DNA of 64,000 nt from the NCBI GenBank assembly GCA_026224875.1, contig JAMFRU010000066.1, positions 1-64,000 of the forward strand, given 5' to 3'. The notes beneath the pieces were generated by a model. The model searched no databases and had not been told where the DNA came from. It saw only the letters and a program-made list of their open reading frames with translations. How positions within the stretch are numbered: the first letter of the stretch is position 1; each line of letters opens with the position of its first letter. This document shows positions 176 through 18,700 of the stretch, piece by piece. This stretch comes from Acidocella sp. (lineage in GTDB: Bacteria; Pseudomonadota; Alphaproteobacteria; Acetobacterales; Acetobacteraceae). The position numbers and the translations under genes are program-made.

Positions 176-2404
176 TCAAAAAGCCTCGGGCGAAATAAAC
201 CGCCGGATCACATTCGCGGTTATCGCCGATACGTTGTTCCGATAATGATTATGCGACAGGCTGCCGGCCCAGGCGATTGAACCGACGGAAAATACCGCCC
301 CGCCAGACGGGGTTTCAAAAAATACCATATCTGCGCGAACGGTAGGGGAATATTCAGCACTTTGCCCGGGATAGTTTATTAACAACGTCTCGACCGTCGG
401 AAGATAATTGCCGGTATGGGCCTCGGAGTGCGCCAGGATCAAAGCATGGGCGGGCGTGCCAAGCGAGACATCCGCACAATCCAGCTCAAGCCCGGCCGCG
501 CCACCACCGATCAGGCCAAAATCTCCAATCAGTTCCGCCTCACCGACACCGTCAAAAATGAAGGCAGCACGAGGATCTTTGCTTGCGGGCAAGCGGCGGT
601 AATAGGAGGATATATCAAATCCCTGGGCGACGAAGCCAACACCGGTGGGCACCTGCGGCGCACGGCCAAGCCGGCGCCATAAACCACCATATTCGCCATT
701 AAAACTATGGAATGCTTCGCCCGGTGGCGTGATCCAGCCATTGCCGACTTCGCAGCGCCGCACCTCGACCACACCCGGGAGCGTCGCATGATAGGCAATT
801 CGCCAATAAAATCCATTGCCCCCGAGATAGACCAGCCGGCCCCCATTGGCCTGGAATGACGCCAGGTGATCCTGCATGGCGGTGGACACATATTCAGGGT
901 GGGTGCCGGTTACCACACAGCGATAGCGGGCGAGAATCGCAGCACCATTCTCGTGCAAATCGTCGTCTGAAATACAGTCATATTCAAGACCCGACTGCTC
1001 CAGCCAACCGGTAAGATGCGTGTCCGCATTAAGCTGCCATAATGCCGACCCCGATCCGCCAAGCCAGGATTGATATTTAGGGCGCATGTTCAAAATCGGC
1101 CGCAGCCTTGATGAATAATAAATGCCGCTATTATCGGAATGGCGGTCGTAAAGCGATCCGCCATATTCACGGTGTTCACTCAGAAAAATATCCGCCGGTG
1201 TAAATACCGGCACCATGTCGTGAACCCGCTCCGCAAGATCGGCATCAAATGCGAGATGCTCATTCGCGTATGCCAAATAGCTGGCACTGGGCAAAATCAG
1301 CAATACCGGTGCCGCGGCACGCTCTTGTGATGGCGTGACGACGAACGGGATATAATCCTCGTCGCCCTCAACCGTCAGCCGCGCCGCGTAGAGCCCGCTT
1401 TTTAGGTCCGCTGGCACCTGCCAGATCGCGTCGGTTTCCCAGCCGGCATCATAAATATCGTCGTCATGAAAATGGATCGCGCCGTATTGACACGGCGCGT
1501 CCTGCCAACGGAACACGCTGCCATCCCAATTATGCCCGGTGACCGCCCGCGCAGGCAGCTGGTAGATGCGGCCATCCAACCCGTTGGAAGATGTGTCCTT
1601 GAAACTTGTTCCTGAAATGTCCTCAGAAAAATCCCAGGCCGCGACAATCTGGCCAAGCGGTGCGGCGGCTATGCCAGCTTGGCATAGCGCCGCCAAACCG
1701 GCTTCATCCAGCGCCTCACTCAGTAATCGCGGCGCGTCTATTTTGCCGTTATAAAATCCTGTTTTCCCCGCAGCGTCACGCGCGGCAAAAATAAATTCGG
1801 CGATCGGTGCGCCAACCCCGCGTTTCGTCAAAATTGCCGACCGGTGCGCGGCATCCTGGTTCCGTGGCTGATGATGCAACGGCAACTGCAACATGGTAAC
1901 CACACCGGTGGCCGCGGCAAAACTAACCGCCACCGCATACCACTGGCCGGATAACACCGGCCGGCCGAGGGCGATCGTCTCCGCCACTCCCACCCCGTCG
2001 CCGATGGTTAGAGACAGGCCGTTCACGCCATCCAGCGCCAGGTAGAACCCGGCCTGGCGTGTCTCGTCCCACAGGCTCGCAATCACCTGTCCGGTTTTGC
2101 CCGGTGTGGTCGGATAGATAAAGGCCTGGAAGGTAAGATCCTCAAGCTTGGATAAAACCGGGTGCGCGGGAACCGCCGCATAGGAACCGCTGGTGATGCT
2201 CTGACGCCGGCCGGGATAAATCCCGTTCACCGCCGCCTCGATCAGCTCATCCTTATAACCGGGACCCGCGGGATTGGCATCGCCATGGATCAGCCGGACG
2301 ACCTGCAAAGCAAAAGAAGCGGTGTTTTCACTGCTGATTTTGAACGCGATCGGCTGGTTCGGCGCGACGCTGAATTTATCGCTGTAACCTAGAATGGTTT
2401 TCAT
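176..2404 (-). CDS. N,N-dimethylformamidase-like large (beta) subunit
   Basis: The 742-residue protein resembles the large subunit of N,N-dimethylformamidase, which hydrolyses formamides to formate and an amine and is about 760 residues long in known enzymes. Residues about 85-265 form a LamG/concanavalin-like jelly roll. The middle (about 410-440) has a family-typical Tyr/His/Asp-rich segment, LYDRHSDNSG followed by YYSSRLRP. The C-terminal third looks like the glutamine-amidotransferase-like fold of this family. Characterised members bind one Fe(III) through two Tyr and one carboxylate; I cannot assign those ligands by eye. The gene starts 6 bp after the small-subunit gene, as expected for a two-subunit enzyme. 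The true substrate is unknown. Its neighbours (NMT1-type binding protein, TenA) suggest a formylated amine, possibly a formyl-aminopyrimidine, rather than dimethylformamide itself. Confidence 0.8.
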   Translation of the reverse strand: MKTILGYSDKFSVAPNQPIAFKISSENTASFALQVVRLIHGDANPAGPGYKDELIEAAVNGIYPGRRQSITSGSYAAVPAHPVLSKLEDLTFQAFIYPTTPGKTGQVIASLWDETRQAGFYLALDGVNGLSLTIGDGVGVAETIALGRPVLSGQWYAVAVSFAAATGVVTMLQLPLHHQPRNQDAAHRSAILTKRGVGAPIAEFIFAARDAAGKTGFYNGKIDAPRLLSEALDEAGLAALCQAGIAAAPLGQIVAAWDFSEDISGTSFKDTSSNGLDGRIYQLPARAVTGHNWDGSVFRWQDAPCQYGAIHFHDDDIYDAGWETDAIWQVPADLKSGLYAARLTVEGDEDYIPFVVTPSQERAAAPVLLILPSASYLAYANEHLAFDADLAERVHDMVPVFTPADIFLSEHREYGGSLYDRHSDNSGIYYSSRLRPILNMRPKYQSWLGGSGSALWQLNADTHLTGWLEQSGLEYDCISDDDLHENGAAILARYRCVVTGTHPEYVSTAMQDHLASFQANGGRLVYLGGNGFYWRIAYHATLPGVVEVRRCEVGNGWITPPGEAFHSFNGEYGGLWRRLGRAPQVPTGVGFVAQGFDISSYYRRLPASKDPRAAFIFDGVGEAELIGDFGLIGGGAAGLELDCADVSLGTPAHALILAHSEAHTGNYLPTVETLLINYPGQSAEYSPTVRADMVFFETPSGGAVFSVGSIAWAGSLSHNHYRNNVSAITANVIRRFISPEAF

Positions 2405-2410
2405 AAAAAT

Positions 2411-2722
2411 TCACAAATCTTCATCGCGCAGCTCGTGCCCGGTGACCTCATACCAACGCAGCTTGAAAATTTCCCACTCGGCTTCTTCCAGCGAGGTAAA
2501 AATCCGGTTGGCATGCACCACGGGCGGCACGCCGCGCTCGCCGGATAATTGGGCAAGCGTCCAACGGCGATAAGGTTCGACGCAGACAAGGCAATATTTT
2601 CCCTTAACCGGCCCCGCGCGGAGCAGGTTGAGAACCTGCTCCAGCCCGGCGCTATGATGGCCGACCGGATTTTGCTTAAACTCTCGCGCCAAATGGAGCG
2701 CGGCAGGATCAATCCGGAACAT
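2411..2722 (-). CDS. N,N-dimethylformamidase-like small (alpha) subunit
   Basis: This is a 103-residue protein directly upstream of the large subunit. Its size, its order and a compact aromatic-rich sequence (KGKYCLVCVEPYRRWTLAQL, then EEAEWEIFKLRWYEVTG) fit the small subunit of N,N-dimethylformamidase (about 130 residues in known enzymes). That subunit has no catalytic residues of its own but is needed for the active heteromer. The start at 2722 lies 4 bp after the stop of the upstream binding-protein gene, so translation is probably coupled. An overlapping frame at 2401-2712 is less protein-like and was discarded. Confidence 0.68.
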   Translation of the reverse strand: MFRIDPAALHLAREFKQNPVGHHSAGLEQVLNLLRAGPVKGKYCLVCVEPYRRWTLAQLSGERGVPPVVHANRIFTSLEEAEWEIFKLRWYEVTGHELRDEDL

Positions 2723-2726
2723 AGAT

Positions 2727-3698
2727 TCAGGCTTTTAATTCGACTGCATAACTATCCAGCGGCAGGGCTTTTTTAATCAGGCCCGCTTTCAGCATAAAGT
2801 CGCGATAGGTGGTGTAGCGCGTCTTATCAAGATAAAACGGATCCTGCGCAAAAGAATCCGGCAGCGCATGCCAGGATGCCTCGTTCAGCTTGTTGTTCAG
2901 CGAGGGCTGATCGCTGGCGAATTTATCCCACATCGGGTCAACGTTTTTGACCAGATAATTCGCCCCTTCCTTGACCGCGCTGAGGAATTTCGGCAGCGCC
3001 GGATTGCTGACACCGGCTTTGTTCGACATGATGATCAATTCATCCGAAGGCGGCACGCCGTGATCTTCGGGGATAAAAATAATCGGGTCCAAACCGGCCT
3101 GCTTCAATTGAATGTCTTCAAAGGTTCGATAAGTACCGATCACGCCATCCACCTCATGCGACATCAAGGCGGTGACAACGGCGAAATTCACATTCACCAA
3201 AGTGACGTCGGTCAGCTTCAGGCCAACCGAACCCAACATCGCGGAGATCAGCGCTTCTTCCACGCCGGCCACCGAATAGCCGATTTTTTTACCCTTGAAA
3301 TCCGCAAGGGTTTTGATGCCCCGGCCGGACAATGCGGTCAGTGTGTTCAACGGTTTATTGATCAACGTTCCGGTGCGGATCACTGGCAGACCCTGATCGG
3401 CGAGCAGGTATAATTCGGTCTGATAGCTCAGCGCCGCATCGACCTTGCCGGCGGCCAGCAGGCGGGGCGGCAGATCCGGGTCCGTCGGCGCGATCAGGTC
3501 CACATCCAGCCCGGCCCGATCGAAGGCACCGATGTATTTTGCCACAAATAGCGGTGCATGGTCCGGGTTCACGAACCAGTCGAGCAGCACGGTGAATTTT
3601 TCGCCGGCGGCAGCGCGGGCGCGGGAGGCAAGCCCGGTACTCGCCAACAAAGTCGCGGCCGAGGCGTAGCTGAGAAGACGGCGGCGATGCATGCTCAT
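2727..3698 (-). CDS. NMT1/THI5-like ABC substrate-binding protein (pyrimidine-type, Tat signal)
   Basis: The 323-residue protein begins MSMHRRRLLSYASAATLLAST, a twin-arginine-type signal peptide followed by an Ala-rich cleavage region, so the mature protein should be periplasmic. The frame extends 30 codons further upstream, but I chose ATG 3698 because GAGGAG sits 9 nt before it and the Tat signal starts there. The mature part starts FTVLLDWFVNPDHAPLFVAK, the classic opening of the NMT1/THI5 family that binds thiamin pyrimidine precursors such as formyl-aminopyrimidine (ThiY); relatives bind nitrate, taurine or other small ligands. It lies 4 bp upstream of the formamidase small subunit, so it probably imports that enzyme's substrate. 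The matching permease and ATPase genes are not in the window. Confidence 0.8.
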   Translation of the reverse strand: MSMHRRRLLSYASAATLLASTGLASRARAAAGEKFTVLLDWFVNPDHAPLFVAKYIGAFDRAGLDVDLIAPTDPDLPPRLLAAGKVDAALSYQTELYLLADQGLPVIRTGTLINKPLNTLTALSGRGIKTLADFKGKKIGYSVAGVEEALISAMLGSVGLKLTDVTLVNVNFAVVTALMSHEVDGVIGTYRTFEDIQLKQAGLDPIIFIPEDHGVPPSDELIIMSNKAGVSNPALPKFLSAVKEGANYLVKNVDPMWDKFASDQPSLNNKLNEASWHALPDSFAQDPFYLDKTRYTTYRDFMLKAGLIKKALPLDSYAVELKA

Positions 3699-4059
3699 TA
3701 TGCTTAGCTCCTCTATGTGATGTAGGCGTTGGTGTATACACAAACTTATAAGCAAACGTCGTGCCAGTGAGGTTAGGGCATAAAACAATCACAACATCAC
3801 CTGAACTGCGATTTTTGTTGCCTAATTTGCACATCAGTTATCAATTTGAGCGGAAAATTTAGGCGTTTTATATTGGCGGTTCTTCTTGTGCATACACAAA
3901 CCTTCGGGGGGCGGAGTCATGATCCTGCAACTCCTCTGCCGGAACTCCCGCCCGCATGGCTGAAAGGTCAGTTCTGCATTTTGCGCCATTCTTGCCCGCA
4001 CCGCGGCTTCATGCTCGGCATAGGGTCACACAGATTGGTTTTCTGCCGCGGCGCAGAAA
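3699..4059. other. Intergenic stretch without a convincing gene
   Basis: This is the region between the binding-protein gene and the GntR-like remnant. A 114-codon plus-strand frame (3846-4190) crosses it but resembles no family and runs across the remnant. I see no canonical THI-box (TPP riboswitch) on either strand. The promoter of the formamidase operon should lie here. Confidence 0.4.
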
Positions 4060-4176
4060 CCCGCGCCGCGAAGCCTCACATACCGGGGTTCCCGACACGT
4101 CATAACGGTCTGTCAGATCCTCTTCCTCGAGCTGGGGCCCTGGCTACAACGCACCGCTGCAGGTATCCGCCATCAT
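4060..4176 (-). pseudogene. Remnant of a GntR-family regulator DNA-binding domain
   Basis: On the minus strand 4143-4072 reads PGPQLEEEDLTDRYDVSG then TPVCEA. This closely follows the winged-helix signature of GntR regulators (PG..L.E..LA.R..VSRTPVREA). A TAG stop at 4146-4144 breaks the frame just before it, an ATG at 4176 lies upstream of the stop, and the sequence after the helix does not continue as a GntR domain. It is read as a decayed former regulator gene, perhaps of the adjacent salvage genes. The match is short, so confidence is moderate. Confidence 0.5.
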
Positions 4177-4257
4177 TTGGTGCTAAATAGCAACGGGAAA
4201 AGTCAGCGTCTTTGGTTCCCAGCATTGTCATCGCCTGATCCTGATTGTACCGCCAAC

Positions 4258-5082
4258 TCACCGCCAGCCCATCTGCCAAAATGCCGCTTCAAGCTCGGTT
4301 GCCTTGTTAAAGGTTGCCAGGAGCGAGTCGTAGCGCGCCTCAGCACCCCGTTTTGTGCCCAACGCATCGAGGGACATGATCGAAGCCGCCACCGATTCAA
4401 CGTATTCCTGGCCGGTATAAGCCTGGATCCAGGCTTTATAGGGATTATCCGCGGGAAGCCCAGCGGCCAGCATCGCGCCGATTTCGGCATAACCCACAAT
4501 GCAGGGCGCCAAGGCCACCATCAGGTCCAAACTGTCCCCAGCGACACCTAGCTCCAGCACGAACCGCGTATAGGCCAGCATTTCCAACGATTGCGGGGCC
4601 GCCGCCATCTCCGGCTCGCTAATGCCCCAGCCGGCGCAATATTCGACATGCAACGGCATTTCAACATCCAGCAGAATGGACGCCGTCCGCATCGCCTCCC
4701 GCATATCCGCCAGATTATCATGCTTATAAGCAAGCAGCAGATAGGCTCGCGCATATTGGGTCAGAAACAAATAATCCTGGATCAGGAAACGTTCGAATTT
4801 TTCTCGTGGCAAAGTGCCGTCGCCCAGGCTCAGCACAAAAGGATGACGGATATATTGCGCCCAGACATCTCCGGAATCGCGGCGCAGCCGGCCAAATAAC
4901 CCATGGTTCAACGGCACGGCATGATCATCGGCTATACTCAAAATCAGTCTCCAAACAATCTCTGGCCATCGATTTTGAAGGCGAGCCTGCGTGAATAAGC
5001 AAGTATCAGGCCACAACTGGGGGCCGGCAGCTCGCTCAAGGCTCGTCACCGGCGCATGGGGGAGCGTTCGATTGACGATCAT
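4258..5082 (-). CDS. tenA: TenA-like thiaminase II / aminopyrimidine aminohydrolase
   Basis: Residues about 60-274 match TenA: the segment HPFVLSLGDGTLPREKFERF followed by LIQDYLFL, a central YCAGWGISEPE region with the Cys expected of the nucleophile, and the C-terminal YTGQEY..S motif. TenA hydrolyses aminopyrimidine breakdown products of thiamin to HMP, which ThiD (49.6 kb) can phosphorylate. The frame is 274 residues against the usual 215-225. The extra N-terminal 50 residues look non-homologous, and ATG 5082 lacks a Shine-Dalgarno and lies in a TATTATAAATG stretch that resembles a -10 box. The real start may be a downstream GTG (near residue 57). Confidence 0.8.
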   Translation of the reverse strand: MIVNRTLPHAPVTSLERAAGPQLWPDTCLFTQARLQNRWPEIVWRLILSIADDHAVPLNHGLFGRLRRDSGDVWAQYIRHPFVLSLGDGTLPREKFERFLIQDYLFLTQYARAYLLLAYKHDNLADMREAMRTASILLDVEMPLHVEYCAGWGISEPEMAAAPQSLEMLAYTRFVLELGVAGDSLDLMVALAPCIVGYAEIGAMLAAGLPADNPYKAWIQAYTGQEYVESVAASIMSLDALGTKRGAEARYDSLLATFNKATELEAAFWQMGWR

Positions 5083-5186: not shown

Positions 5187-5670
5187 TTGAGTTTTGCTTG
5201 GGTATGCGTGTTCACCGATGACCAGCTCCGAGCGTTCTGTTCGAAGGTGGCGCCCTTGCCGCAATGCGTCCTGGTACCACTCTGGCGATGCACACCGCTA
5301 GCTCGCCAGAACTGGCTCGTGAGATTGGGACAGGACACCTGCCGGCGGTGGTGTGCTGGATGCGACGTTCAGTGGTGGCCCCCACGACGTGCTTGCTGGC
5401 GCGCTGACGCTTATGATTGGGGGAGAGCCGGAAACCGTAGAGCATGCGAGACCGCTTCTGCAAACCTATGCCGATAAAATCTTCTACATTGGCCCCCTTG
5501 GTTATGGTCAAATGCTCAAGCTGCTCAACAATTTGTCGTTTGCGGCGAATTTGAAAAATGTGGCGGAGCTACTGCAGCTGGCCGAAGGGCTGAATTTCAA
5601 AGCCAGCGACGTCGCAAACATCATTCAAAATTGCAGCGGCGGAGGTCAAAGCGTGCATGCCGCGCTATAC
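5187..5670 (+). pseudogene. Broken 3-hydroxyisobutyrate dehydrogenase-family gene
   Basis: Pieces of one protein occur in successive frames: VCVFTDDQLRA near 5207, then LFEGGALAAMRPGTTLAMHT and ASSPELAREIG from about 5238, then VLDATFSGGPHDVLAGALTL and the following GGEPETVEHARPLL, FYIGPLGYGQMLKLLNN up to about 5670. These are the conserved blocks of the 3-hydroxyisobutyrate dehydrogenase/tartronate semialdehyde reductase family, in order (the FSGGP block is the substrate-binding motif, the KLLNN block carries the catalytic Lys). The N-terminal Rossmann part and the C-terminus are missing and there are at least two frameshifts. Its 3' end overlaps the spoVR stop. Confidence 0.8.
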
Positions 5671-7181
5671 TGGTTTATAACGGTATCAGATTGTGCTTGG
5701 ACCTCGGCCAGCGTCACCTCATAGCCCCATAGATTGGCCAGATGCTGCAGCACCTTCATCGTATCCTTTTCATGCACGAGAATGCCGGAGTAGACCCGGT
5801 GCTGCAAAATCAACCGCCGGTCACCATCGAGATCGACGTCCACCACCTCAATTTCCGGCTCGTTCTGCACCACGTCGAACTGGTTGGCGAGGCTGGTGCG
5901 TAAGGTACGATAGCCGCGCTCGTTATGAATGGCTTTGACGGTAAGATCTGATTTGGCATCGTCATGCAGATCGAAAAATTTCATTTTGCGCATCAGCGCC
6001 GGTGAGAGGAACTGGCGGATGAAACTCTCGTCGCGGTGGTTGGCCCAGCCGTCCTTCAGCACGCCCAGCCAGTCGCCGCAGCCGGCGATTTCCGGCAACC
6101 AGGCGCGGTCTTCCTCCGTCGGTGTTTCGCAGATGCGCTGAATGTCCTGCATCATACCAAAACCCAGCGCATAGGGGTTGATGCCCGAATAGCCAGGATG
6201 ATCGAAATCCGGCTGGAACACCGCGCCGGTATGCGATTGGAAAAACTCCATCATCGCGCCATCGGTCAGGAAGCCCGTTTCATGCAGCCGGTTCATCACA
6301 TGATAATGCACAAAGGTGGCGCAGCCTTCATTCATCATCTTGGTCTGTTTCTGCGGGTAGAAATACTGCGCGATATGCCTGACGATGCGCAAAATTTCGC
6401 GCTCCCAGGTTTTGAGCAATGGTGCTTTCTTTTCGAGAAAATACAGGAGGTTTTCTTCAGGCAGGCCCAGCAATTGCCGGCGTTCCGTTTGGCTGTGCGG
6501 CTTGGGTGAACGGACACCATGCACGGGAACCGACTGCCAGAGTTCGTTATAGGAGCGCTCCTGCTCCTCCAGCCGCTCGCGGGCACGCCGCTCCTCTTCG
6601 CGCAGGTTGAGTGATTGCCGGCGCGGATAGCGGCTGACCCCTTGTGCCATGAGCGCGTGTGCTGCATCGAGTATGCGCTCCACGGCCTCCTCGCCATAGC
6701 GTGACTCGCAGCGCGCGATATAGGTTTTCGCGAATTCGAGATAATCCAGAATGCCATCGGCATCCGTCCATTGCCGGAACAGATTGTTGTTCTTGAAAAA
6801 ATGATTATGCCCGAACGCCGCATGCGCGATCACCAGCGTCTGCATCATCATGGAGTTTTCCTCCATGAGATAAGCGATGCAGGGATTGGAATTGATCACG
6901 ATTTCATAGGCAAGGTTGCGCAGACCATGGCGGTAGAGCAGTTCGTCGCGCGCAAAATTTTTGCCGAACGACCAGTGCTGATACATCAGCGGCATACCGA
7001 CGGATGAATAGGCATCGAGCATCTGCTCGAAGGTGATGATTTCGATCTGATTGGGGTAGATGTCGAGCTTCAGTTCATGCGTTGAGATTTTCTCGATCGC
7101 GTCATAGGCGCGCCGCAGGCTGTCGAAATTCCAATCCTTTTCCATGCGATCTTTTTTCGGGTGCGAGAGGGTGGGGCTCAT
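5646..7181 (-). CDS. spoVR: SpoVR/YcgB family stress protein
   Basis: The 511-residue protein matches the SpoVR family (E. coli YcgB is about 510 residues): an N-terminal block with YPNQIEIITFEQMLDAY, an acidic-aromatic centre (NEGCATFVHYHVMNRL) and a family-typical C-terminal domain. The molecular function is unknown; in Bacillus it affects spore cortex, and in proteobacteria it is co-expressed with YeaGH in general stress and nitrogen starvation. Its start overlaps the yeaH stop by 4 bp (ATGA), so it is the third gene of the prkA-yeaH-spoVR operon. The last residues (SAACTL) are encoded in DNA shared with the dehydrogenase pseudogene, so the native C-terminus may have been altered. Confidence 0.93.
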   Translation of the reverse strand: MSPTLSHPKKDRMEKDWNFDSLRRAYDAIEKISTHELKLDIYPNQIEIITFEQMLDAYSSVGMPLMYQHWSFGKNFARDELLYRHGLRNLAYEIVINSNPCIAYLMEENSMMMQTLVIAHAAFGHNHFFKNNNLFRQWTDADGILDYLEFAKTYIARCESRYGEEAVERILDAAHALMAQGVSRYPRRQSLNLREEERRARERLEEQERSYNELWQSVPVHGVRSPKPHSQTERRQLLGLPEENLLYFLEKKAPLLKTWEREILRIVRHIAQYFYPQKQTKMMNEGCATFVHYHVMNRLHETGFLTDGAMMEFFQSHTGAVFQPDFDHPGYSGINPYALGFGMMQDIQRICETPTEEDRAWLPEIAGCGDWLGVLKDGWANHRDESFIRQFLSPALMRKMKFFDLHDDAKSDLTVKAIHNERGYRTLRTSLANQFDVVQNEPEIEVVDVDLDGDRRLILQHRVYSGILVHEKDTMKVLQHLANLWGYEVTLAEVQAQSDTVINQYSAACTL

Positions 7182-8464
7182 GACGCAACCTTCCTGGCTT
7201 GACGCCGGGCTGAAAAAAGCTCCCGGAATACAGGATAGATTTCTCCCCGCTCACTCACCCGCCGCGCTTCTATCCGCTGCCCGGCTTTGATCAACTGATC
7301 ATAAGTGCGCCATAAATCGCTCTGCAGCGCCGCGCCGCTGTCGCCCTTCACTTCGATATAGGCAAAATACTGGCAAAGCGGCAGGATTTTCTGCTTCAGT
7401 AATGCCGCGGCAACGACGTTATCGTTTGCCATATTATCACCATCCGATGCCTGGGCCGCGTAGATATTCCATTGATTCTGCGGATAGCGCGCGGCAACCA
7501 CGCGCAGCATTTCCTCGAACGCTGTGGACACCACCGTCCCTCCGGTTTCGGTGCTCATGAAGAAGGTCTCCTCATCCACCTCACGTGCCAGATGGGTGTG
7601 GCGGATAAAGACGATCTCGACATTTTTGTAGAGCCGCGTGAGGAACAGATAGAGCAGCTTATAGAAGCGCTTGGCGAGGTCCTTCATATGTTCGGTCATC
7701 GAGCCCGAGACATCCATGAGGCAGAACATCACCGCACTCGTCACCGGCTGCGGCACCAGTTCGAAGCGGTTGTAACGCACATCCACCGGGTCGATGAAGG
7801 GGATGCGACGGATCCGGCGGGTTTGTTCCTCAAGCCGTTCCTTCAGCGCGTGGCCGGCCTCAGTATCATCCTGCTCCAGCGCGTCCAACGCCGCCGCCGT
7901 CGCCGCCACTTCCAACGGGCGCGGGCGTTTCAGCGCGATCCGCCGCGCCAGGCTGTTCTGCATTGTGCGCTTGAGGTTGAGGTTGGGGATGGAGCCGCTG
8001 ATGGCGTGGCCGGCGCGTACATGGGTAAAGCTATCGGCGGATTTCATCTCCTTGCGCAGCAGATCCGGCAGTTCCAGATCATCGAAGAAGATGTCGAGGA
8101 ATTCCTCCTGGCTCAGGGCAAATTGAAACGCATCCTGCCCATCGCCATCATCCACCGCCTCACTGCCACCCTTGCCGCCGCCCTGCTGTGGCGGCCGTTT
8201 TATCCGGTCGCCCTGCTCGTACTGCTTATTGCCCGGCAGCACATGCTCGCGCTCGCCCTGGGCGCTGGAGTGGCGGATGCGCGGTTCCTGCAGCCGGTCT
8301 GTCTTGACCCAGATGGGAGTCTCGCCGCCGAGATCGCTCACACTCTGCTCACTCGTGGCTTTGCGCACCGCCTCGGTGAGTTCCTGCTTGGCGCGTTGGA
8401 TAAAGCGCCGGCGGTTGGACAGGCTTTTACCCTGCGGGTTCAGTCGCCGATCAACAATGTTCAT
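7178..8464 (-). CDS. yeaH: YeaH/YhbH family protein (DUF444, VWA-like)
   Basis: The 428-residue protein has the same length as E. coli YeaH (427). The N-terminal half is basic and low complexity, with a Gly-rich QQGGGKGG linker. The C-terminal half carries a von Willebrand A fold with the metal-site motif DVSGSM (near residue 250), then FIRHTHLAREV and TGGTVVSTAFEEM. It is encoded between the kinase PrkA and SpoVR, is thought to be a partner or target of the kinase, and is separated from prkA by 18 bp. The function is not known biochemically. Confidence 0.94.
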   Translation of the reverse strand: MNIVDRRLNPQGKSLSNRRRFIQRAKQELTEAVRKATSEQSVSDLGGETPIWVKTDRLQEPRIRHSSAQGEREHVLPGNKQYEQGDRIKRPPQQGGGKGGSEAVDDGDGQDAFQFALSQEEFLDIFFDDLELPDLLRKEMKSADSFTHVRAGHAISGSIPNLNLKRTMQNSLARRIALKRPRPLEVAATAAALDALEQDDTEAGHALKERLEEQTRRIRRIPFIDPVDVRYNRFELVPQPVTSAVMFCLMDVSGSMTEHMKDLAKRFYKLLYLFLTRLYKNVEIVFIRHTHLAREVDEETFFMSTETGGTVVSTAFEEMLRVVAARYPQNQWNIYAAQASDGDNMANDNVVAAALLKQKILPLCQYFAYIEVKGDSGAALQSDLWRTYDQLIKAGQRIEARRVSERGEIYPVFRELFSARRQARKVAS

Positions 8465-8482
8465 GATCTATGGCCTTATCCG

Positions 8483-10429
8483 TTACCCCGCCTGTTTCAC
8501 GCGCATGTACCATTCCACCAGCCGGCGCACCTGCCGCTCGGTGTAGCCGCGCGCCATCATGCGGTCGAGAAATTCCGTATGCTTGCGCTCGGTTTCAACT
8601 TCCTTTTTGCTGCCAAAGCTGATCACGGGCAGCAGATCTTCGACCTGACTGAACATCCGGCGTTCGATCACCTCGCGGATTTTCTCGTAACTCGTCCAGG
8701 CGGGATTATGCCCGCCATGCGCCGCTCTGGCGCGCAACGCAAATTTTACCACTTCGTTACGAAAATCCTTGGGGTTGGCGATACCGGCCGGCTTTTCGAT
8801 TTTGGTCAGCTCCTGGTTGAGCTGTTCACGGTCGAGCATCTGGCCGGTATCGGGGTCCTTGAAATCAAGATTTTCGATCCAGGCATCGGCATAGTCGAGA
8901 TAACGGTCGAACAGATTCTGGCCATAGTCATTATAGGATTCGAGATACGCTTTCTGGATCTCATTGCCGATAAATTCGGCATAACGTGGCGCCAATGTGC
9001 CCTTTATGAAATCGAGATATTGCTTCTCGGTTTCTTCGCCGAACTGCTCGCGTTTGATGGCCTGTTCCAACACCCACATCAGATGCACCGGATCGGCGCC
9101 GACCTCGCGTGTGTCGTAATTGAAGGTCGCGGAGAGCACTTTGAAGGCAAACCTGGTGGAAATGCCATCCATCCCTTCATCCACCCCGGCCGCATCGCGG
9201 TATTCCTGCATGGTTTTCGCGTTCGGCTCGGTCTCGCGCAGATTTTCGCCGTCATAGACACGCAGTTTGGAAAAAAGATTGGAGTTGGGGTGCGGCCGCA
9301 GGCGCGACAGCACGGCGAAACGGGCCAGCATTTCCAGCGTCGCCGTGGCGCAAGGCGCGTTGGCGAGCTCGCTGGTGCGAACAAGCTTCTCGTATATTTT
9401 CTGCTCTTCCGTCACGCGCAGGCAATAGGGTACTTTCACCACGCAGATGCGGTCGATAAACGCCTCATTATTCTTGTTGTGCTTGAAGGTTTGCCATTCC
9501 GCCTCGTTGGAATGCGCAAGAATGACACCGTTGAAGGGTATGGCGCCGATATTCTCGGTACCGACATAATTGCTTTCCTGTGTTGCTGTGAGCAGCGGAT
9601 GCAGGATTTTGATCGGCGCCTTGAACATCTCCACGAATTCGAGCAATCCCTGGGTAGCGCGGTTGAGGCCGCCGGAATAGCTATAGGCATCGGTATCGTT
9701 CTGGCTGAACAGCTCCAGCATGCGGATATCCACCTTGCCGACCAGACTGGAAATATCCTGGTTATTCTCATCGCCCGGCTCGGTCTTGGTCACGCCAATC
9801 TGGCGCAGTTTCGACGGGTAGAGTTTGACCACGGTGAATTTCGAGATATCACCGCGAAATTCATCCAGCCGCTTCACCGCCCAGGGCGACATAAGCCCCG
9901 TAAGCCGCCGCCGGGGGATACCAAAATGGTCTTCCAGCTCCGCCCCCAGATGCACGGGGTCGAACAGGCCGAGCGGGCTTTCAAACACCGGGCTGAGTTG
10001 GTCTCCCGCCTTCAGCACATAAATCGGCAGTTGCTCCATGAGCGACTTCAACCGCTCGGCGATTGAGGATTTGCCGCCGCCGACCGGCCCCAGAAGATAA
10101 AGGATCTGCTTGCGTTCCTCTAAGCCCTGGGCCGCGAAGCGGAAGAAATTGACGATGCGTTCGACCGTATCTTCCATACCGAAAAACTCGGCGAAAGCGG
10201 GGTAGACCTTGATTGTCCGGTTCATATAGATCCGCCCCAGGCGAGGGTCCTTGGCGGTATCGATCACCTGGGCTTCACCGATGGCCGCCACAAGGCGTTC
10301 GGCGGCGGTGGAATAGGCCAAAGGGTCCCGGCGGCATAGGTCGAGGTACTCAAGCAACGGCATCTCTTGCTGCCGCTGATTCTCGTACGATTGCAGGGAA
10401 CGAGAAAATAGCTGATCGACCATACCCAT
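8483..10429 (-). CDS. prkA: PrkA/YeaG serine protein kinase
   Basis: The 648-residue protein matches PrkA/YeaG (about 640 residues). It has an AAA-like N-terminal domain with the Walker A loop GPVGGGKS (about residues 113-120) and a C-terminal kinase-like domain. The family autophosphorylates and has been linked to stress and starvation responses, and some members have AAA+ protease activity. The ATG at 10429 has AGGAG 7 nt upstream. It is the first gene of the prkA-yeaH-spoVR operon, and the 500-bp upstream region holds a cluster of GTGCATC repeats that may be its operator. Confidence 0.95.
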   Translation of the reverse strand: MGMVDQLFSRSLQSYENQRQQEMPLLEYLDLCRRDPLAYSTAAERLVAAIGEAQVIDTAKDPRLGRIYMNRTIKVYPAFAEFFGMEDTVERIVNFFRFAAQGLEERKQILYLLGPVGGGKSSIAERLKSLMEQLPIYVLKAGDQLSPVFESPLGLFDPVHLGAELEDHFGIPRRRLTGLMSPWAVKRLDEFRGDISKFTVVKLYPSKLRQIGVTKTEPGDENNQDISSLVGKVDIRMLELFSQNDTDAYSYSGGLNRATQGLLEFVEMFKAPIKILHPLLTATQESNYVGTENIGAIPFNGVILAHSNEAEWQTFKHNKNNEAFIDRICVVKVPYCLRVTEEQKIYEKLVRTSELANAPCATATLEMLARFAVLSRLRPHPNSNLFSKLRVYDGENLRETEPNAKTMQEYRDAAGVDEGMDGISTRFAFKVLSATFNYDTREVGADPVHLMWVLEQAIKREQFGEETEKQYLDFIKGTLAPRYAEFIGNEIQKAYLESYNDYGQNLFDRYLDYADAWIENLDFKDPDTGQMLDREQLNQELTKIEKPAGIANPKDFRNEVVKFALRARAAHGGHNPAWTSYEKIREVIERRMFSQVEDLLPVISFGSKKEVETERKHTEFLDRMMARGYTERQVRRLVEWYMRVKQAG

Positions 10430-10925: not shown

Positions 10926-10959
10926 TTACACAGCGCGCGGAACAGCCCCTTCTTGTCGC

Positions 10960-11186
10960 CATATGCGGCGTAGATGCCCGTAATTGGGATAGCGTCGAGC
11001 AGGTGCGGCGGGTCGTGGATGAGATCGGGCTGTCACCGGCACCCGTTGCACCGGCCTGCTCGTTGCCCGTCGCGGTGTTGCGTCAACCCTGATGGGTGTA
11101 AACGGTCCGGCACGGCTTGCCGACAACATTGCCGCACTCGACCTTGTGCTGCCATCGGATCGTCGGCTGGCACTCGATGCGGTAAG
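10960..11186 (+). pseudogene. C-terminal fragment of an aldo/keto reductase, cut by an IS
   Basis: The plus strand reads VRRVVDEIGLSPAPVA in one frame, then after a frameshift near 11050 LLVARRGVASTLMGV and LADNIAALDLVLPSDRRLA plus LDAVSTPG. This is the typical C-terminal helix and NADPH-site region of aldo/keto reductases (spaqvALaWll..gv.s.l.G.r..eqL.dNl.A.d). It stops near 11186, exactly where the minus-strand IS3-type orfB sequence begins, so the IS or a later deletion removed its end. The upstream part is unrecognisable. Confidence 0.7.
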
Positions 11187-11492
11187 CACGCCAGGCTTGT
11201 CCCGCTGCAGGCGTTTGCGCGGCTTAATCCGCAGGTTCAACTCCAGCTCACGGTAAATGCGATACACCCGCTTATGGTTCCAACGCCGCCCCTGAACATG
11301 GCGTAGGTACAAGAAACGCAGCCCGAAACCCCAACTCCTCCGGGCATTCGTCAGCCCCACCAGCAGATCAGCGATCTCTTCATTCGCGCCGACCAGCTTG
11401 GGCGCATAGCGATAACACGTCTCGCTCACGCCAAACGTCCGGCAGGCCAGCGCAATGCTGACACCGCGCCTCGCCACGGCAACCTCGGCCAT
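11186..11492 (-). pseudogene. Truncated IS3-family (IS407-like) transposase OrfB
   Basis: The minus strand encodes the HTH-21-like N-terminal part of an IS3 OrfB: CRTFGVSETCYRY, then RRSWGFGLRFLYLR and WNHKRVYRIYRELELNLRIK plus PRKRL. Homology stops at about 11186, before the DDE catalytic core, where the aldo/keto reductase fragment is joined. The open frame continues to 10926 but that part is not transposase. The copy cannot be active. Confidence 0.85.
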
Positions 11493-11515
11493 CTCACGGC
11501 GTTGAGATGGCCGCG

Positions 11516-11779
11516 CTATTTTTTTCCCAGAGCTTCCTTGAGCAGCTCGTTCTGCATGCTCAGTTCCGCAAACATCTTCTTCAGCCGCCGATTCTCATCC
11601 TCAATCGCCTTCATCGAGGAGACCATCGAGGCGTCCATGCCGCCATACTTCGCCCGCCATTTATAAAACGAGGCATCGCTCATGCCGTGTTCCCGGCACA
11701 GCTCAGCTACAGGCACACCGCCTTCAGCCTGACGTAAGATCGCAAGGATCTGGGGTTCGCTATATCTCGACGTTTTCAT
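11516..11779 (-). CDS. IS3-family transposase OrfA
   Basis: This intact 87-residue OrfA starts MKTSRYSEPQILAILRQAE. It has the helix-turn-helix VAELCREHGMSDASFYKWRAK and the leucine-zipper segment EDENRRLKKMFAELSMQNEL used for oligomerisation. AGGAG lies 7 nt before the ATG. In the intact element OrfA and OrfB are joined by a programmed frameshift; here OrfB is truncated. The terminal sequence of the element probably lies near 11800-11850, where the DNA becomes AT-rich. Confidence 0.9.
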   Translation of the reverse strand: MKTSRYSEPQILAILRQAEGGVPVAELCREHGMSDASFYKWRAKYGGMDASMVSSMKAIEDENRRLKKMFAELSMQNELLKEALGKK

Positions 11780-12089
11780 GAAAATCTCCTCGGGTAAAAT
11801 GCCGAGAAAATTCTACTTATCAATCCCCTTAATTACAGGGGGGATTACCCTACAACGCCGACCGCACTCAAGACTGCGCATCCCGCAGGAAGCGGCCTCC
11901 TGATCCAGACACCTCTTTTTCGGAGCGTCCGGTTTTGACTGACAGAAACAGACAACGTTATAGACTTATCTTCGCTTACACGGACAACCGCTCGAATCCT
12001 GTCTGCGTACGAATACATGAACTACCTCCTCGTAGTCCAAGTTTTTGTCCGCATCCCCTCTGGGGCTCTGGTCAAAACCAGCCACCTTG
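11780..12089. other. Junction between two IS relics, no gene
   Basis: This stretch holds the outer end of the IS3/IS407-like relic (with ATTAAGGGGATTGATAAG read on the minus strand) and about 230 bp of unassigned DNA before the next transposase fragment. Short frames here resemble nothing I know. Confidence 0.5.
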
Positions 12090-12440
12090 GCAGCGACCGC
12101 ACCTACGGTGCCCGGCGCGTGTGGCATGATGTGCTGGCCGAAGGCATTGCCTGTGGGCTGCACCGCATTGAACGGCTGATGCGGGCCCAGGCCCTGCGCG
12201 CCCGCCCCCGGCGCAGGCGGATGCCGGCCGGCAAAGGTGAGCGAAGTGCAGAGCCTGCCGGCAATGTTCTAGACCGGCAGTTTGTGGCGTCAGCACCAAA
12301 TCGCAAATGGATCGCTGATTTTACCTATATCTGGACCGCCGAGGGCTGGCTGTATGTGGCAGTCGTGATCGATCTCTTCTCCCGCCGCGTGGTCGGCTGG
12401 TCAATGAGTGCCAGGATGAGTGCACAGCTGCCGGTAGAGC
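12090..12440 (+). pseudogene. Internal fragment of a second IS3-family transposase OrfB
   Basis: The plus strand reads SDRTYGARRVWHDVLAEG, then LHRIERLMRAQALRARPRRR and NRKWIADFTYIWTAEGWLYV plus VVIDLFSRRVVGWSM. This includes the first catalytic Asp (IADFTY) and second Asp (VVIDLFS) of the DDE domain of a different IS3 subgroup from the neighbour. Both ends are missing: the N-terminal domain before 12090 and the part with the catalytic Glu after about 12440. Confidence 0.88.
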
Positions 12441-12734
12441 GTCTGAAGCAGATGCTCTACAATTCAAACTGATCGCCCTGGGTGCCGAACTTCAGGCGCT
12501 GACCCTGGGGTTCAGGGATACAAGCTTGGCTCTTCTCGCCGGCATGAGAGGGCAAGACCGAGACCTGATTGAACACGCAACGCCCGATCTTGCCGATTGG
12601 GATTTCGGCGCCGACGTCGTTCTCATCCGGCCACGCTTCGGCATTCAGGATGCAGAACGGGACGATTTTGGTCTTGATGACCAAATCTCAGAACTCTTCT
12701 CGAGTCTACATGGCATCTTGAATGAAGAGAGGCG
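12441..12734 (-). other. Unidentified fragment between IS relics
   Basis: A 75-codon minus-strand frame (12457-12684) contains KIVPFCILNAEAWPDENDVG and EIPIGKIGRCVFNQVSVLP. It looks like real coding sequence (sensible residue mix on the minus strand), but I do not recognise the family. It is flanked by an IS3 fragment and an IS110 fragment and is probably a remnant. Confidence 0.3.
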
Positions 12735-13165
12735 CTCATGTGAGCGCGCAGGGCATTGACCAGCATGGTCCGTTGACGGACCAGTAAATTGCGGGCGCGA
12801 TGCAGCATCAGTATCGATTGCTGATCCACATCCTTCACCGGCACAAAGCGCATTGTTGGGCGCGTCACCGCCTCGCAGATCGCTTCAGCGTCCGCCGCAT
12901 CATTCTTATTCCGCTTGACGTAAGCCTTCACATAGGCCGGCGGCATTAACTTCACCTGATGGCCGAGCACGGTCAGCTCGCGCGCCCGATGGTGCGCCGT
13001 CGCGCAGGCTTCCATGCCAACCAGGCAAGGCTCAATCGATTGAAAATAAGCCAGAACCTCGCCGCGCCGCAGCCGGCGGCGGATAATAATCTGTCCTACA
13101 GCGTCAACGCCGTGAACCTGAAACCAGTTCTTGGCGAGATCAAGGCCAATTGTGCTAATCGTCAT
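12735..13165 (-). pseudogene. N-terminal half of an IS110-family transposase
   Basis: From ATG 13165 the minus strand reads MTISTIGLDLAKNWFQVHGV, with the first Asp of the DEDD RuvC-like catalytic site. YVKRNKNDAADAEAICEAV follows, with further acidic residues, and then VDQQSILMLHRARNLLVRQR. Homology ends at NALRAH near 12735, so the C-terminal half with the Ser/Tyr-type transposase_20 domain is missing. IS110 elements have no clear inverted ends, so the boundaries cannot be fixed. Confidence 0.9.
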
Positions 13166-13447
13166 GTGGGCGACTCCTTTCACGTGGTGTTCACCGACGA
13201 CCACTTTGGCACATCGATGCCGGGAGCAGGGGCCGTCCACCTCATCAAGAATTATGCACCATTGGCGCGCCCAAGCATTTCCAAGGGCTCAACCGGTACG
13301 AATATCAGCAATTGCTGTTTAATTCCCAATTGCCGACAGTCGGCTCTCGGCCCAAGCCAGCCAAAGATCGTTCGTTCTCCAGTCGCCGTGCCGGCAGCCG
13401 CGCCAACGCATTTCCGGTTTCACAACAACCCATGCTAGCGCGATAGC

Positions 13448-15451: not shown

Positions 15452-15718
15452 GTCCCGCCCGGCGCAGGTGGCTGAGACGCTGGGTCAAGACAATTTCATA
15501 CGTGGTGGAACGGTCAGCAAAGAGCTCTTCTGCACGCTGCGGCAAGCCTGCTTTTTATCATTGATTCCGGCCCAACTCACGTAATCGTGATCGCGTGGAA
15601 TGTTTTGATCTGATGTAATACTTAGTTACATTGGGGGTTCTGGCGCTGCTGTTTTCAGGCGTGGGGCAACTAACACGTGCCGCGCCCGAAACAGTCCCAC
15701 CACGGAAGCCAGAACCAC

Positions 15719-18700
15719 ATGTCCAGCACAACCGTCGCGTCGATCGGCGACCTCGACTCTGCCATCGCCACCGCCAATGCACTCACCGCCGGCAGTTACA
15801 CCATCACGCTGGGCGGCGACATCGCCATGGACAATACGGCTGTCACGGCCATTGTGCTTGCGTCTGGTGTCTCGCTGACCATCGATGGTGCCGGTTACAC
15901 GCTTGATGGCGGCAATACCGAGCATGGGCTGTTCGCCTATTCCGGCACGGTTACGTTGGAAAACCTGACCATTGCCGACGCCCAGGCCTATGGCGGCAAT
16001 GCGCCGCACTACTTGGTTTCGCACGGTCTTACCGTCTCCTATGGCGGCGGCGGCGGCGGCGCTGGCCTTGGCGGCGGGATTTTTGTCGGCAGCGGTGCCA
16101 ATGTTGCGCTGGCAGATGTCAACTTCAGCGGCGATGGCGCGCATGGCGGCAACGGCAGCCTGTCCGACGAGCAGAACGGCGGCGGCGGCGCATTTGACGG
16201 TGGCGGCACACCGCCAGAAGGAAGTTTTGGTGCAGGCGGAGGTTATGGCGCCGGGGGTGGCTTTGGCGGCGGTGGCGGGGTCAGCGCCGGCGGCGGCTTC
16301 GGCGGCGGCAACGGCTCACCCGTCAACAGACCGACGGCCTTCCCCATTCCGGGCGGCGGCGGCGGCGGGCTGGGTGCCGGCGGCGACATTTTTATCCAGC
16401 AGGGTGGTACGCTCACGCTCGAAGGCGGGACGCTGGGCGCCGGCAGCGTCTCCGGCGGCAGCGGGGTGCAGCAAGTTTTTGGCAGTGGCGGAAACGGCTA
16501 CCCCTCCGCTCCTGGCCAAGGGCTGGGCAGTGGGATTTTCCTGCAAGGCTATGAGACCATCGGTATCGGCGCTCTCACCGGCCAAACCACCACGGTTGCG
16601 GGCGTCATCGCCGACCAGGGTGGAGATGGCGGCAAAGGCAGCATTCTGATCGGCGATTTTTCCGGAAATAGCGGCGGCACGGTGCTGTACACCGCCGATA
16701 ATACCTATCTCGGCGGCACCACCATTGATAGCGGCACGCTGCAGCTCGGGGCCGGCGGCACGGCGGGGGTGGTGGCGAGCAGTGTCAGCATCGCCGCGCA
16801 GGCGGTTCTGGCGTTCGATCATGGCGCCGATCTGACATTCGCCCAGACGATTACCGGTGCTGGCAGCCTGGTCCAGGAGGGCGGCGGCACGCTGGTTCTG
16901 ACCGGCACGAATTCCTATACCGGCGGCACCACCATCGAAAACGGCGCGCTGCAGCTTGGGGCCGGCGGCAGTACAGGCATGGCCGGCACTGGTAACATCA
17001 GCGTCGCCGCCGGCGCCAGCCTGGCATTCGACCGGGCCGACAGCGTGACCTTCGCCGGTACCATTTCGGGGGCGGGCGGCGTTATCCAGGCTGGGTCCGG
17101 CGCGCTCACCCTTACCGCCGGCAACGATTTCTCCGGCGGTTTGACTCTGAATAGCGGCACGCTGGCGCTGGAAAATGCGCAAGGTGCCGGTACCGGCACC
17201 ATCGCGTTCGGCGCAGCGCCGTTCAGCGTTCTGCAGATCGGCGCGGGCGATGCGCCGGCCAATGTCATCGCGGGCTTCGTGCCTGGCGAAACCATCGATC
17301 TGCAGGGTTTTGGCCCGGTGACCGGCATGAGCCTGGCGGCCGGAAATGTGCTGGAGATTTCCGGCGCCACCGGCAGCCTGGCTCTGAGCCTGGCACCAGG
17401 TCAGGATTTTTCAACAACCGGCTTTTTCGCGAAATCCGATGGCAGCGGCGGGGCCGATATCGCCGCGGCGGTGCTGAATTTCAATGTCTCGAACGAGGCG
17501 GAGCTGAATGCGGCACTTTTAGAGATCGGGCGCGAAAGCGCCGATGTTCCCGCCGGCGAAACCATCACCATCGAGATGTCGGGCGCCAGCATCGCGCTGA
17601 CCACAGCGCTGGAAGCGGTCAATGTTTCCGGCGGCGCGCAGCTGGTCATCGATGGCGGCGGCGGCGTTCTGGATGGTCTCGGCAGCCAGCGCGGGCTGTT
17701 CGTTTATTCCGGAAATGTCACGGTTGAGAATCTCGCCATCAACAATGCCGCGGCCGTGGGCGGTAATGCCAGCAATTTGCTGGACCAGTATGACAACTAT
17801 ATTGGCGGCGGCGGCGGCGGCGGTGCTGGATTAGGTGGGGGCCTGTTCGTGGCCGGCACGGATAATGGCGGTGCGGCACCAGCCCATGTCATCCTCAGCA
17901 ATGTCACCTTCCAGAACAATACGGCGCGCGGCGGCAATGGCGGGTATCTGGAGTTCATTGATTCCTATCATACGCCAGCGGCGTTGGGCGGCGGCGGCGG
18001 GCTTGGCGGCGATGGCGGTGTGGGCGGCGGCGGCATTGGCGCCGGCGTTACAGGCGGCATCTCCCAGGGAAGCGCCGGACAGGCGGGCATCATCCCCTAT
18101 GGGGCCGGTGCCGGCGCCGGGGCCGGCGGGTATCCAAATAATATCTATGTCGCCGGCGGCGCGGGCGGGGCCAGCGGCGGCGCGGGCGGCGGGGGCGATG
18201 GCGATGGCGCTTCATACCAGACCGGCGGCGGCGGCGGCATTGGCGGTGAGCCCGGGCAGGGTGGTTTCAGCTCCGATGGCGCCGGCGGCATCAGTGGCTT
18301 TGCGGGCGGCACCGGCGGCTTTGGCGGTGGCGGCGGCGCCAGGGGCATCGGCAGCACCATCGGCGGCGGCGGCAACGGCGGTTTCGGCGGCGGCGGCGGC
18401 GGCTATGGCGCGGCGCGCGGGTTTACCAACGGCGCCGGAAACTATGTCTACACCGGCGGGTCGGGTGGCTTTGGCGGCGGCGGTGGCGCCAGCGGGGCTG
18501 ACTATTATGCACAAAACGGCGGTGCCGGTGGTTTCGGCGCCGGTCACGGTGTTGCATCCGGCGGCGGTGGCGGGCTTGGTGCCGGCGGCGATATTTTCGT
18601 CCAGGAAGGCGGCTCGCTGATCATCGAGGGCGGCAGCCTGGCCGCTGGCAGCGTGACCGGCGGGGCGGGCCGTGAGAACTCAATTTACGGCACTAATAAT

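Follow-up and report, generated by a model that had tools for sequence, protein, structure and literature searches.

A candidate gene cluster for uptake and breakdown of the thiamin pyrimidine in Acidocella and other Acetobacteraceae

Four genes at a contig end

We analysed a window of 64,000 nucleotides of Acidocella sp. DNA (the whole stretch, which begins at the end of the 64,048-base contig C134 of a 3.87 Mb draft genome), in which genes for a two-subunit enzyme resembling N,N-dimethylformamidase (DMFase), a substrate-binding protein (SBP) and TenA lie together (Table 1). The original prediction described four genes on a single strand, and all of them are found on the minus strand close to where they had been placed. 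From their homologies and from their neighbourhoods in other genomes, we propose with moderate confidence that they belong to a cluster for the catabolism of the pyrimidine of thiamin (vitamin B1), with the DMFase-like enzyme as deformylase of formylaminopyrimidine (FAMP). Under this hypothesis, the four genes would be one part of an uptake and breakdown system, most of the remainder lying on contig C80 of the same genome.

Table 1. Features at the start of the window, with the matches on which each assignment is based. ORF, open reading frame; aa, amino acids.
Feature	Position	Strand	Basis
DMFase-type large subunit, 742 aa, mononuclear iron amidase, proposed FAMP deformylase	176..2404	-	PF20254 (DMFA2_C), PDB 6lvb
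DMFase-type small subunit, 103 aa	2411..2722	-	69-sequence profile vs 6lvb_B
ThiY/THI5-like SBP	2727..3698 (ORF extendable to 3788)	-	NMT1, PDB 3ix1
TenA (thiaminase II / aminopyrimidine aminohydrolase family)	4258..4941 (ORF extendable to 5082)	-	PF03070, TIGR04306
Fragment, 3-hydroxyisobutyrate / tartronate-semialdehyde reductase family, probably pseudogene; membership of the system uncertain	5353..5724	+	TIGR01692, TIGR01505

The large subunit matches PF20254 with 323.9 bits (cut-off 27, E 2e-96), and its leading PDB matches are DMFase (6lvb, E 5e-160) and N-acetyl-(R)-beta-phenylalanine acylase (8huy, E 7e-160). The small-subunit ORF has no Pfam match and, as a single sequence, no significant PDB match; a profile of 3 sequences reaches 6lvb_B with an E of only 0.003, and one of 69 sequences with 8e-13, the next match being at 0.05. 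Furthermore, a homologue of this ORF lies directly upstream of the DMFA2 gene in 30 other loci with a small subunit (L032-L061).

In the available parts of the structural study of DMFase (PMC7686228), the iron is held by Y399, Y440 and E521, and catalysis is assigned to H519, N547 and E657. By alignment, the corresponding residues in the window protein are Y379, Y419 and E504, and H502, N530 and E640, and all six are identical in six out of six members of the cluster described below. Since 109 other relatives keep them as well, save for N530 (107 of 109), these residues indicate the type of active amidase to be expected and not which substrate it would accept. A change specific to the cluster was considered at the pocket residue F693 and dropped, because the Ile found there in all six cluster members is also present in 32 of the 109 other relatives.

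The prediction of an NMT1/THI5-like binding protein was borne out by the matches of the SBP to NMT1 (E 3e-56) and, as the best in the PDB, to the FAMP-binding protein ThiY (3ix1, E 5e-38), followed by yeast THI5. The window TenA matches PF03070 with an E of 4e-42, and its C147, D56 and E218, which we take to be the active-site Cys, Asp and Glu of the TenA_C type, are invariant across the four cluster TenAs aligned.

Start codons were set by codon scoring, which places the SBP start at 3698 and not at the TTG at 3788, and the TenA start at 4941; in high-GC relatives a codon-scored caller was likewise used, since longest-ORF calls gave wrong genes there. The genes for the SBP, the small subunit and the large subunit probably form one operon because they are separated by gaps of only 4 and 6 bp, and the contig ends past the large-subunit gene. 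The tenA gene is located 559 bp upstream of the SBP start and, given this gap, its co-transcription with the operon is only putative.

Recurrence of the gene set and the larger cluster

We surveyed 249 genomes of the family, 83 of which contain DMFA2_C and 27 the small subunit, and examined 118 DMFase-like loci (L032-L149): 30 with a small-subunit match, 8 other DMFA2_C loci and the best 80 of 492 relatives from a named collection. L035 and L070 hold the same protein, the DMFase match of L066 is weak, and contig ends truncate many of the loci; absences are valid within about 10 kb at most. Both subunits together with an SBP relative of more than 35% identity were found in five of the 118 loci (L032, L033, L088, L092 and L110, the last with an SBP truncated where its contig stops), and TenA in four (L032, L088, L092 and L110). 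L155, which continues the contig of L033, carries a TenA about 11 kb from the SBP. The other 113 loci do not have this set.

The co-occurrence of DMFase-like subunits, NMT1-type protein and tenA that had been suggested thus recurs in two further genomes, G217 and G178, and in Komagataeibacter, at 43-61% identity. The order in G217 (L032) is SBP, small subunit, large subunit and TenA (60, 61, 59 and 61% identical to those of the window), and in Komagataeibacter intermedius, K. oboediens and the available K. rhaeticus sequence it is SBP, small subunit, large subunit, aldehyde dehydrogenase (ALDH), GntR and TenA. In a quick-method tree, built from 115 sequences after three with matches below 650 residues and one duplicate had been removed from 119 candidates (the window protein included), the six cluster DMFase-like proteins form one clade (SH-aLRT 100), and none of 500 shuffles scored as low. 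Because the set recurs across other genera, the association of DMFase-like genes, SBP and TenA is not a matter of chance, and the conserved neighbourhood contradicts the earlier alternative that TenA is only a neighbour. Separately, the DMFase-like gene of L083, on a contig titled as a Klebsiella pneumoniae metagenome-assembled genome, groups with an uncultured gammaproteobacterium, and the title is probably misassigned.

The neighbourhood is larger than these four genes. In the Komagataeibacter locus L088, genes divergent from the SBP genes encode an ATP-binding cassette (ABC) ATPase and permease, an alpha/beta hydrolase, an amidohydrolase, the alpha and beta subunits of a Rieske oxygenase and RidA, followed by a second alpha/beta hydrolase and a zinc alcohol dehydrogenase (ADH). 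All of these are found in G217, and all but RidA and the first hydrolase in G178, mostly at 42-77% identity. Both genomes add hydroxyethylthiazole kinase (ThiM) as well as an amidase and flavin monooxygenases of the NtaA/DmoA type, the ThiM finding covering these two clusters; furthermore, G217 has a rhodanese and G178 a TonB receptor. ALDH and GntR lie between or beside the genes for SBP, DMFase-like enzyme and TenA in G217, G178 (where the ALDH beside GntR is only 114 aa as called) and Komagataeibacter, so that the two parts of the cluster are interleaved.

In the window genome, the 13.6 kb contig C80 carries the ATPase, permease, amidohydrolase, Rieske alpha and beta subunits, RidA and a hydrolase, and also ADH, ALDH, an amidase, GntR and an acetamidase/formamidase of the FmdA type. 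The ABC partners of the SBP, whose ligand is a prediction, would be the ATPase and permease of C80; their counterparts adjoin the SBP in L088.

A Rieske-alpha profile run against the 249 family genomes separates G217, G178, the window genome (C80, 72% identical to L088) and a further genome, G048, at 829-953 bits, from the next match at 538. The orthologue is present in five of 397 family genomes (five of 102 genera), one of them being G750, with 85-96% identity to the Komagataeibacter genes; within the window's genus it occurs in the window genome only and is absent from the 13 others listed. This patchy spread suggests horizontal transfer. Across the class, nine of 385 genomes pass 1e-150 (window genome 901 bits, next 640), and no TenA or DMFase match was found at the six loci (L172-L177) of five of the eight others, namely those other than G276, G310 and G377. 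Among these loci, L172 (4662-10426, genome G331 of another family) has a related Rieske alpha (58%), a beta subunit, an ABC transporter, an SBP (29%) and RidA, with no TenA, and may represent a sister route that acts on a different N-heteroaromatic acid. A plasmid search with the window genome's Rieske alpha gave 75 records, all below 60% identity.

Proposed route and competing explanations

The best PDB matches of the Rieske alpha subunit are terephthalate dioxygenase (TPADO) and salicylate 5-hydroxylase, and the best NCBIfam model for the L088 protein is that of anthranilate dioxygenase AndAc (NF041684). The available parts of PMC9060491 give aryl carboxylates (anthranilate, salicylate, picolinate and terephthalate) as the substrates of this subgroup, and describe in TPADO an R309 that anchors the carboxylate and an R390 that contacts the second carboxylate of terephthalate; of the enzymes compared there, the terephthalate enzyme alone has N224, S243 and R390. 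In our profile alignment R309 and the iron ligands H210, H215 and D356 are kept (numbering counted on 7vju), N224 is replaced by Ala and R390 by Leu, and S243 is also Ser in the cluster Rieske alpha. The carboxylate-binding Arg and the His, His and Asp ligands are invariant across five aligned sequences, including that of the window genome. Because R309 is kept while N224 and R390 are replaced, a monocarboxylic aryl acid appears the more likely substrate.

In the route that we propose, the two-subunit DMFase-like iron enzyme would remove the formyl group of FAMP, and TenA would hydrolyse the aminomethyl compound to hydroxymethylpyrimidine (HMP), which the zinc ADH and the ALDH would convert to 4-amino-2-methylpyrimidine-5-carboxylate. 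This compound would be an ortho-amino aromatic acid and, with the amino group next to the carboxyl group on the ring, a ring analogue of anthranilate. The Rieske oxygenase would then hydroxylate the carbon that bears the carboxylate, with loss of CO2 and perhaps of ammonia, and the ring would be opened by the amidohydrolase, RidA, the alpha/beta hydrolases and the amidase/acetamidase, giving small acids, acetamide-type products and ammonia. We favour catabolism because an anthranilate-like acid would suit this type of Rieske enzyme, together with the presence of TenA, a ThiY-like SBP and ThiM in one cluster.

Somewhat more tentatively, at a little under an even chance, the set may be complete for mineralising the B1 pyrimidine, with FAMP deformylation of the DMFase type, TenA and two dehydrogenases, a Rieske enzyme stripping carboxyl and amino groups, and ring-opening hydrolases that would yield acetamide-type products and, at the tartronate semialdehyde level, an acid with three carbons. 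That level is expected for the product of a fully hydrolysed 5-hydroxylated pyrimidine. The reductase gene of the window is only a remnant: its 123-aa ORF matches TIGR01692 over positions 112-211 (63 bits) and TIGR01505 over positions 114-204 (53 bits), both far under cut-off.

Several observations weigh against the catabolic cluster. All substrates and steps in it are predictions, built on gene content, homology, catalytic residues and neighbourhood. In the window genome the two parts are on separate contigs, and the ends of C80 and C134 share no sequence. Gene content varies: no RidA was called in G178, the first alpha/beta hydrolase was called neither there nor on C80, and the Komagataeibacter loci lack a flavin monooxygenase of the type seen in the cluster; the best match in the window genome to the G217 flavin monooxygenase (LLM1) has only 51% identity, and around the three best LLM1 sites the only further gene that resembles the cluster is one for an aldehyde dehydrogenase, with 34% identity, at a single site. 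The L088 Rieske alpha, at 428.8 bits, is under the AndAc equivalog cut-off of 750. The cluster TenAs are near or under the cut-off of the thiaminase II model (TIGR04306, 130 bits), with 130.3 bits in the window, 132.3 in L088, 114.9 in L032 and 116.5 in L155, so their substrate may have shifted, and the DMFase-like protein is equally near to an N-acetyl acylase and to DMFase. Finally, G048 keeps the core (L151, 5128-19999, where additional ThiY-like binding proteins and two monooxygenases of the LLM1 type are present) without DMFase-like enzyme or TenA, and these two are therefore not obligatory to it: G048 is not among the 83 DMFA2_C genomes, and its one PF03070 match is PqqC and no true TenA. 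The absence of both together is as expected if they act as one module, and the pair looks like a removable module that would feed a core starting at HMP. As a side observation, the window genome has 30 matches to PF00296 (luciferase-like monooxygenase) in 3.9 Mb, which seems many.

The alternative that survives best, possible although we consider it doubtful, is that some other N-formyl or N-acyl (hetero)aromatic compound is broken down by the cluster, TenA, ThiM and the ThiY-like SBP having been recruited to handle a look-alike, for example an aminopyrimidine of another kind or a thiamin antivitamin. The N-acetyl acylase among the DMFA2 relatives, the borderline TenA scores and the range of aryl carboxylates on which the Rieske subgroup is known to act would all suit it. 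However, the presence of three functions of the thiamin type (ThiY-like SBP, TenA and ThiM) in one cluster is not readily accounted for unless the substrate resembles thiamin, and a plain N-formylanthranilate pathway is disfavoured by the lack of a catechol-cleavage gene among the annotated neighbours.

Salvage only, as originally proposed, is unlikely; on this reading HMP for thiamin synthesis would be recovered from FAMP by the SBP, the DMFase-like enzyme and TenA, and the Rieske and dehydrogenase genes would form a separate pathway that lies nearby by chance. The functions do match those of ThiY, YlmB and TenA, and ThiM is a salvage enzyme; the window genome keeps the two groups of genes on different contigs, and in G048 the Rieske part stands by itself. 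On the other hand, G217, G178 and Komagataeibacter have the parts interleaved, and six of seven cluster genomes carry thiC, including that of the window (it is absent in G178, which is 89% complete; G750 was outside this sample), so that HMP salvage is not essential there. A thiamin pyrophosphate (TPP) riboswitch precedes thiC in the window genome and in G217 (L159 and L160), with none at the third thiC locus, L161. No Rfam match at the gathering threshold, and hence no TPP riboswitch, was found in seven cluster loci from five genomes, and the window gave tRNA only; this argument is weak, as L184, the sole true TenA locus scanned outside the cluster (from another species of the window's genus), likewise has none. 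The other six of the seven PF03070 loci scanned encode PqqC, and riboswitches were found in none of the seven. Stronger PF03070 matches were considered as a housekeeping TenA and rejected, the six scanned (G249, G251, G178, G048, G187:C2 and G224) being PqqC by NCBIfam; G250 has a second PF03070 match of PqqC-like score. The cluster copy is the sole true TenA of G000 (the window genome), G217, G178, G249 and G251.

The absence of YlmB from the locus holds, as there is no M20 domain among the annotated cluster neighbours. Elsewhere in the window genome, where a ylmB homologue would have counted against the original prediction, there are seven M20 proteins, six of them over an NCBIfam cut-off and one (L188 on C8, ArgE/DapE-like) below all models and unassigned, so that the genome may still encode a YlmB. 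The idea that the DMFase-like enzyme could be the deformylase is strengthened by the conserved neighbourhood, the ThiY-closest SBP, the kept iron site, the single clade and the lack of a neighbouring M20 protein, and it appears to be the natural reading of this enzyme, with the substrate itself inferred. Salvage as the whole story, by contrast, is not borne out: the same genes sit with a Rieske oxygenase, dehydrogenases, hydrolases and GntR. We prefer catabolism because salvage alone leaves the oxygenase unexplained, and the salvage framing is probably too narrow.

Mere coincidence, with tenA next to a DMFase-like operon by accident, would suit the 559 bp gap, the transposase-like ORFs of the window and the other DMFase-like loci without TenA, but is highly improbable given that the set recurs in the window genome, G217, G178 and Komagataeibacter in different gene orders and with a single DMFase-like clade.

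The rest of the window holds features outside the catabolic cluster. Directly upstream of tenA, a compact set on the minus strand (5646-10429) encodes SpoVR (Pfam), DUF444 (Pfam) and a 648-aa protein, presumably PrkA kinase, and is unrelated to the cluster. Several transposase-like ORFs, recognised by eye, lie at 10926-13240, and insertion sequences may have split the assembly between C134 and C80. A plus-strand gene at 15677-23281 encodes a 2534-aa glycine-rich repeat protein with, by eye, autotransporter-like repeats and a C-terminal Hint-like segment.

Relation to known systems and significance

Among the closest known systems is the ThiY/YlmB/TenA salvage of FAMP in Bacillus, which likewise brings together a ThiY-like binding protein, a formamide-hydrolase-type enzyme and TenA with ABC partners. 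In the cluster, however, the deformylase would be an iron enzyme of the DMFase type instead of the M20 enzyme YlmB, a Rieske oxygenase, ADH, ALDH, hydrolases and GntR are present, and most hosts make HMP. The Paracoccus DMFase (6lvb; available parts of PMC7686228) likewise consists of two subunits, and its catalytic His, Asn and Glu and its 2-Tyr-1-Glu iron site are all kept in the cluster enzyme, whereas the partner genes of the cluster point to a pyrimidine formamide. The cluster Rieske alpha falls in the aryl-carboxylate subgroup of AndAc, terephthalate dioxygenase and the salicylate hydroxylases, but scores below the AndAc cut-off, lies beside thiamin-type genes and has a pyrimidine carboxylate as its predicted substrate.

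Gene clusters for the breakdown of vitamin B6 are known. One for vitamin B2 is known as well and, going by the available parts of its description (PMC12746152), this riboflavin/lumichrome cluster (Lum, RcaE) is the nearest analogue, combining vitamin breakdown with a flavin monooxygenase, a Rieske oxygenase and amide hydrolases. By that description, and not gene by gene, it differs in acting on another vitamin, while the B1 cluster has TenA, a ThiY-like SBP and the DMFase-like enzyme. No thiamin catabolic gene cluster was found among the literature matches listed, a search whose coverage left out most subscription journals, and the sole match for dimethylformamidase with thiamin was an unrelated study of hen microbiota.

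The available parts of PMC10470507 report no clear YlmB in the two Roseobacteria tested or in other marine phytoplankton and bacteria, and leave open which enzymes deformylate FAMP there. The DMFase-like enzyme is a concrete candidate for this step from a different enzyme class. Taken together, our proposal, if true, would provide a new FAMP deformylase and genes for the catabolism of the B1 pyrimidine, and the DMFase fold would gain a natural substrate. It would also name the genes with which acetic-acid-type bacteria may consume parts of a scarce vitamin.

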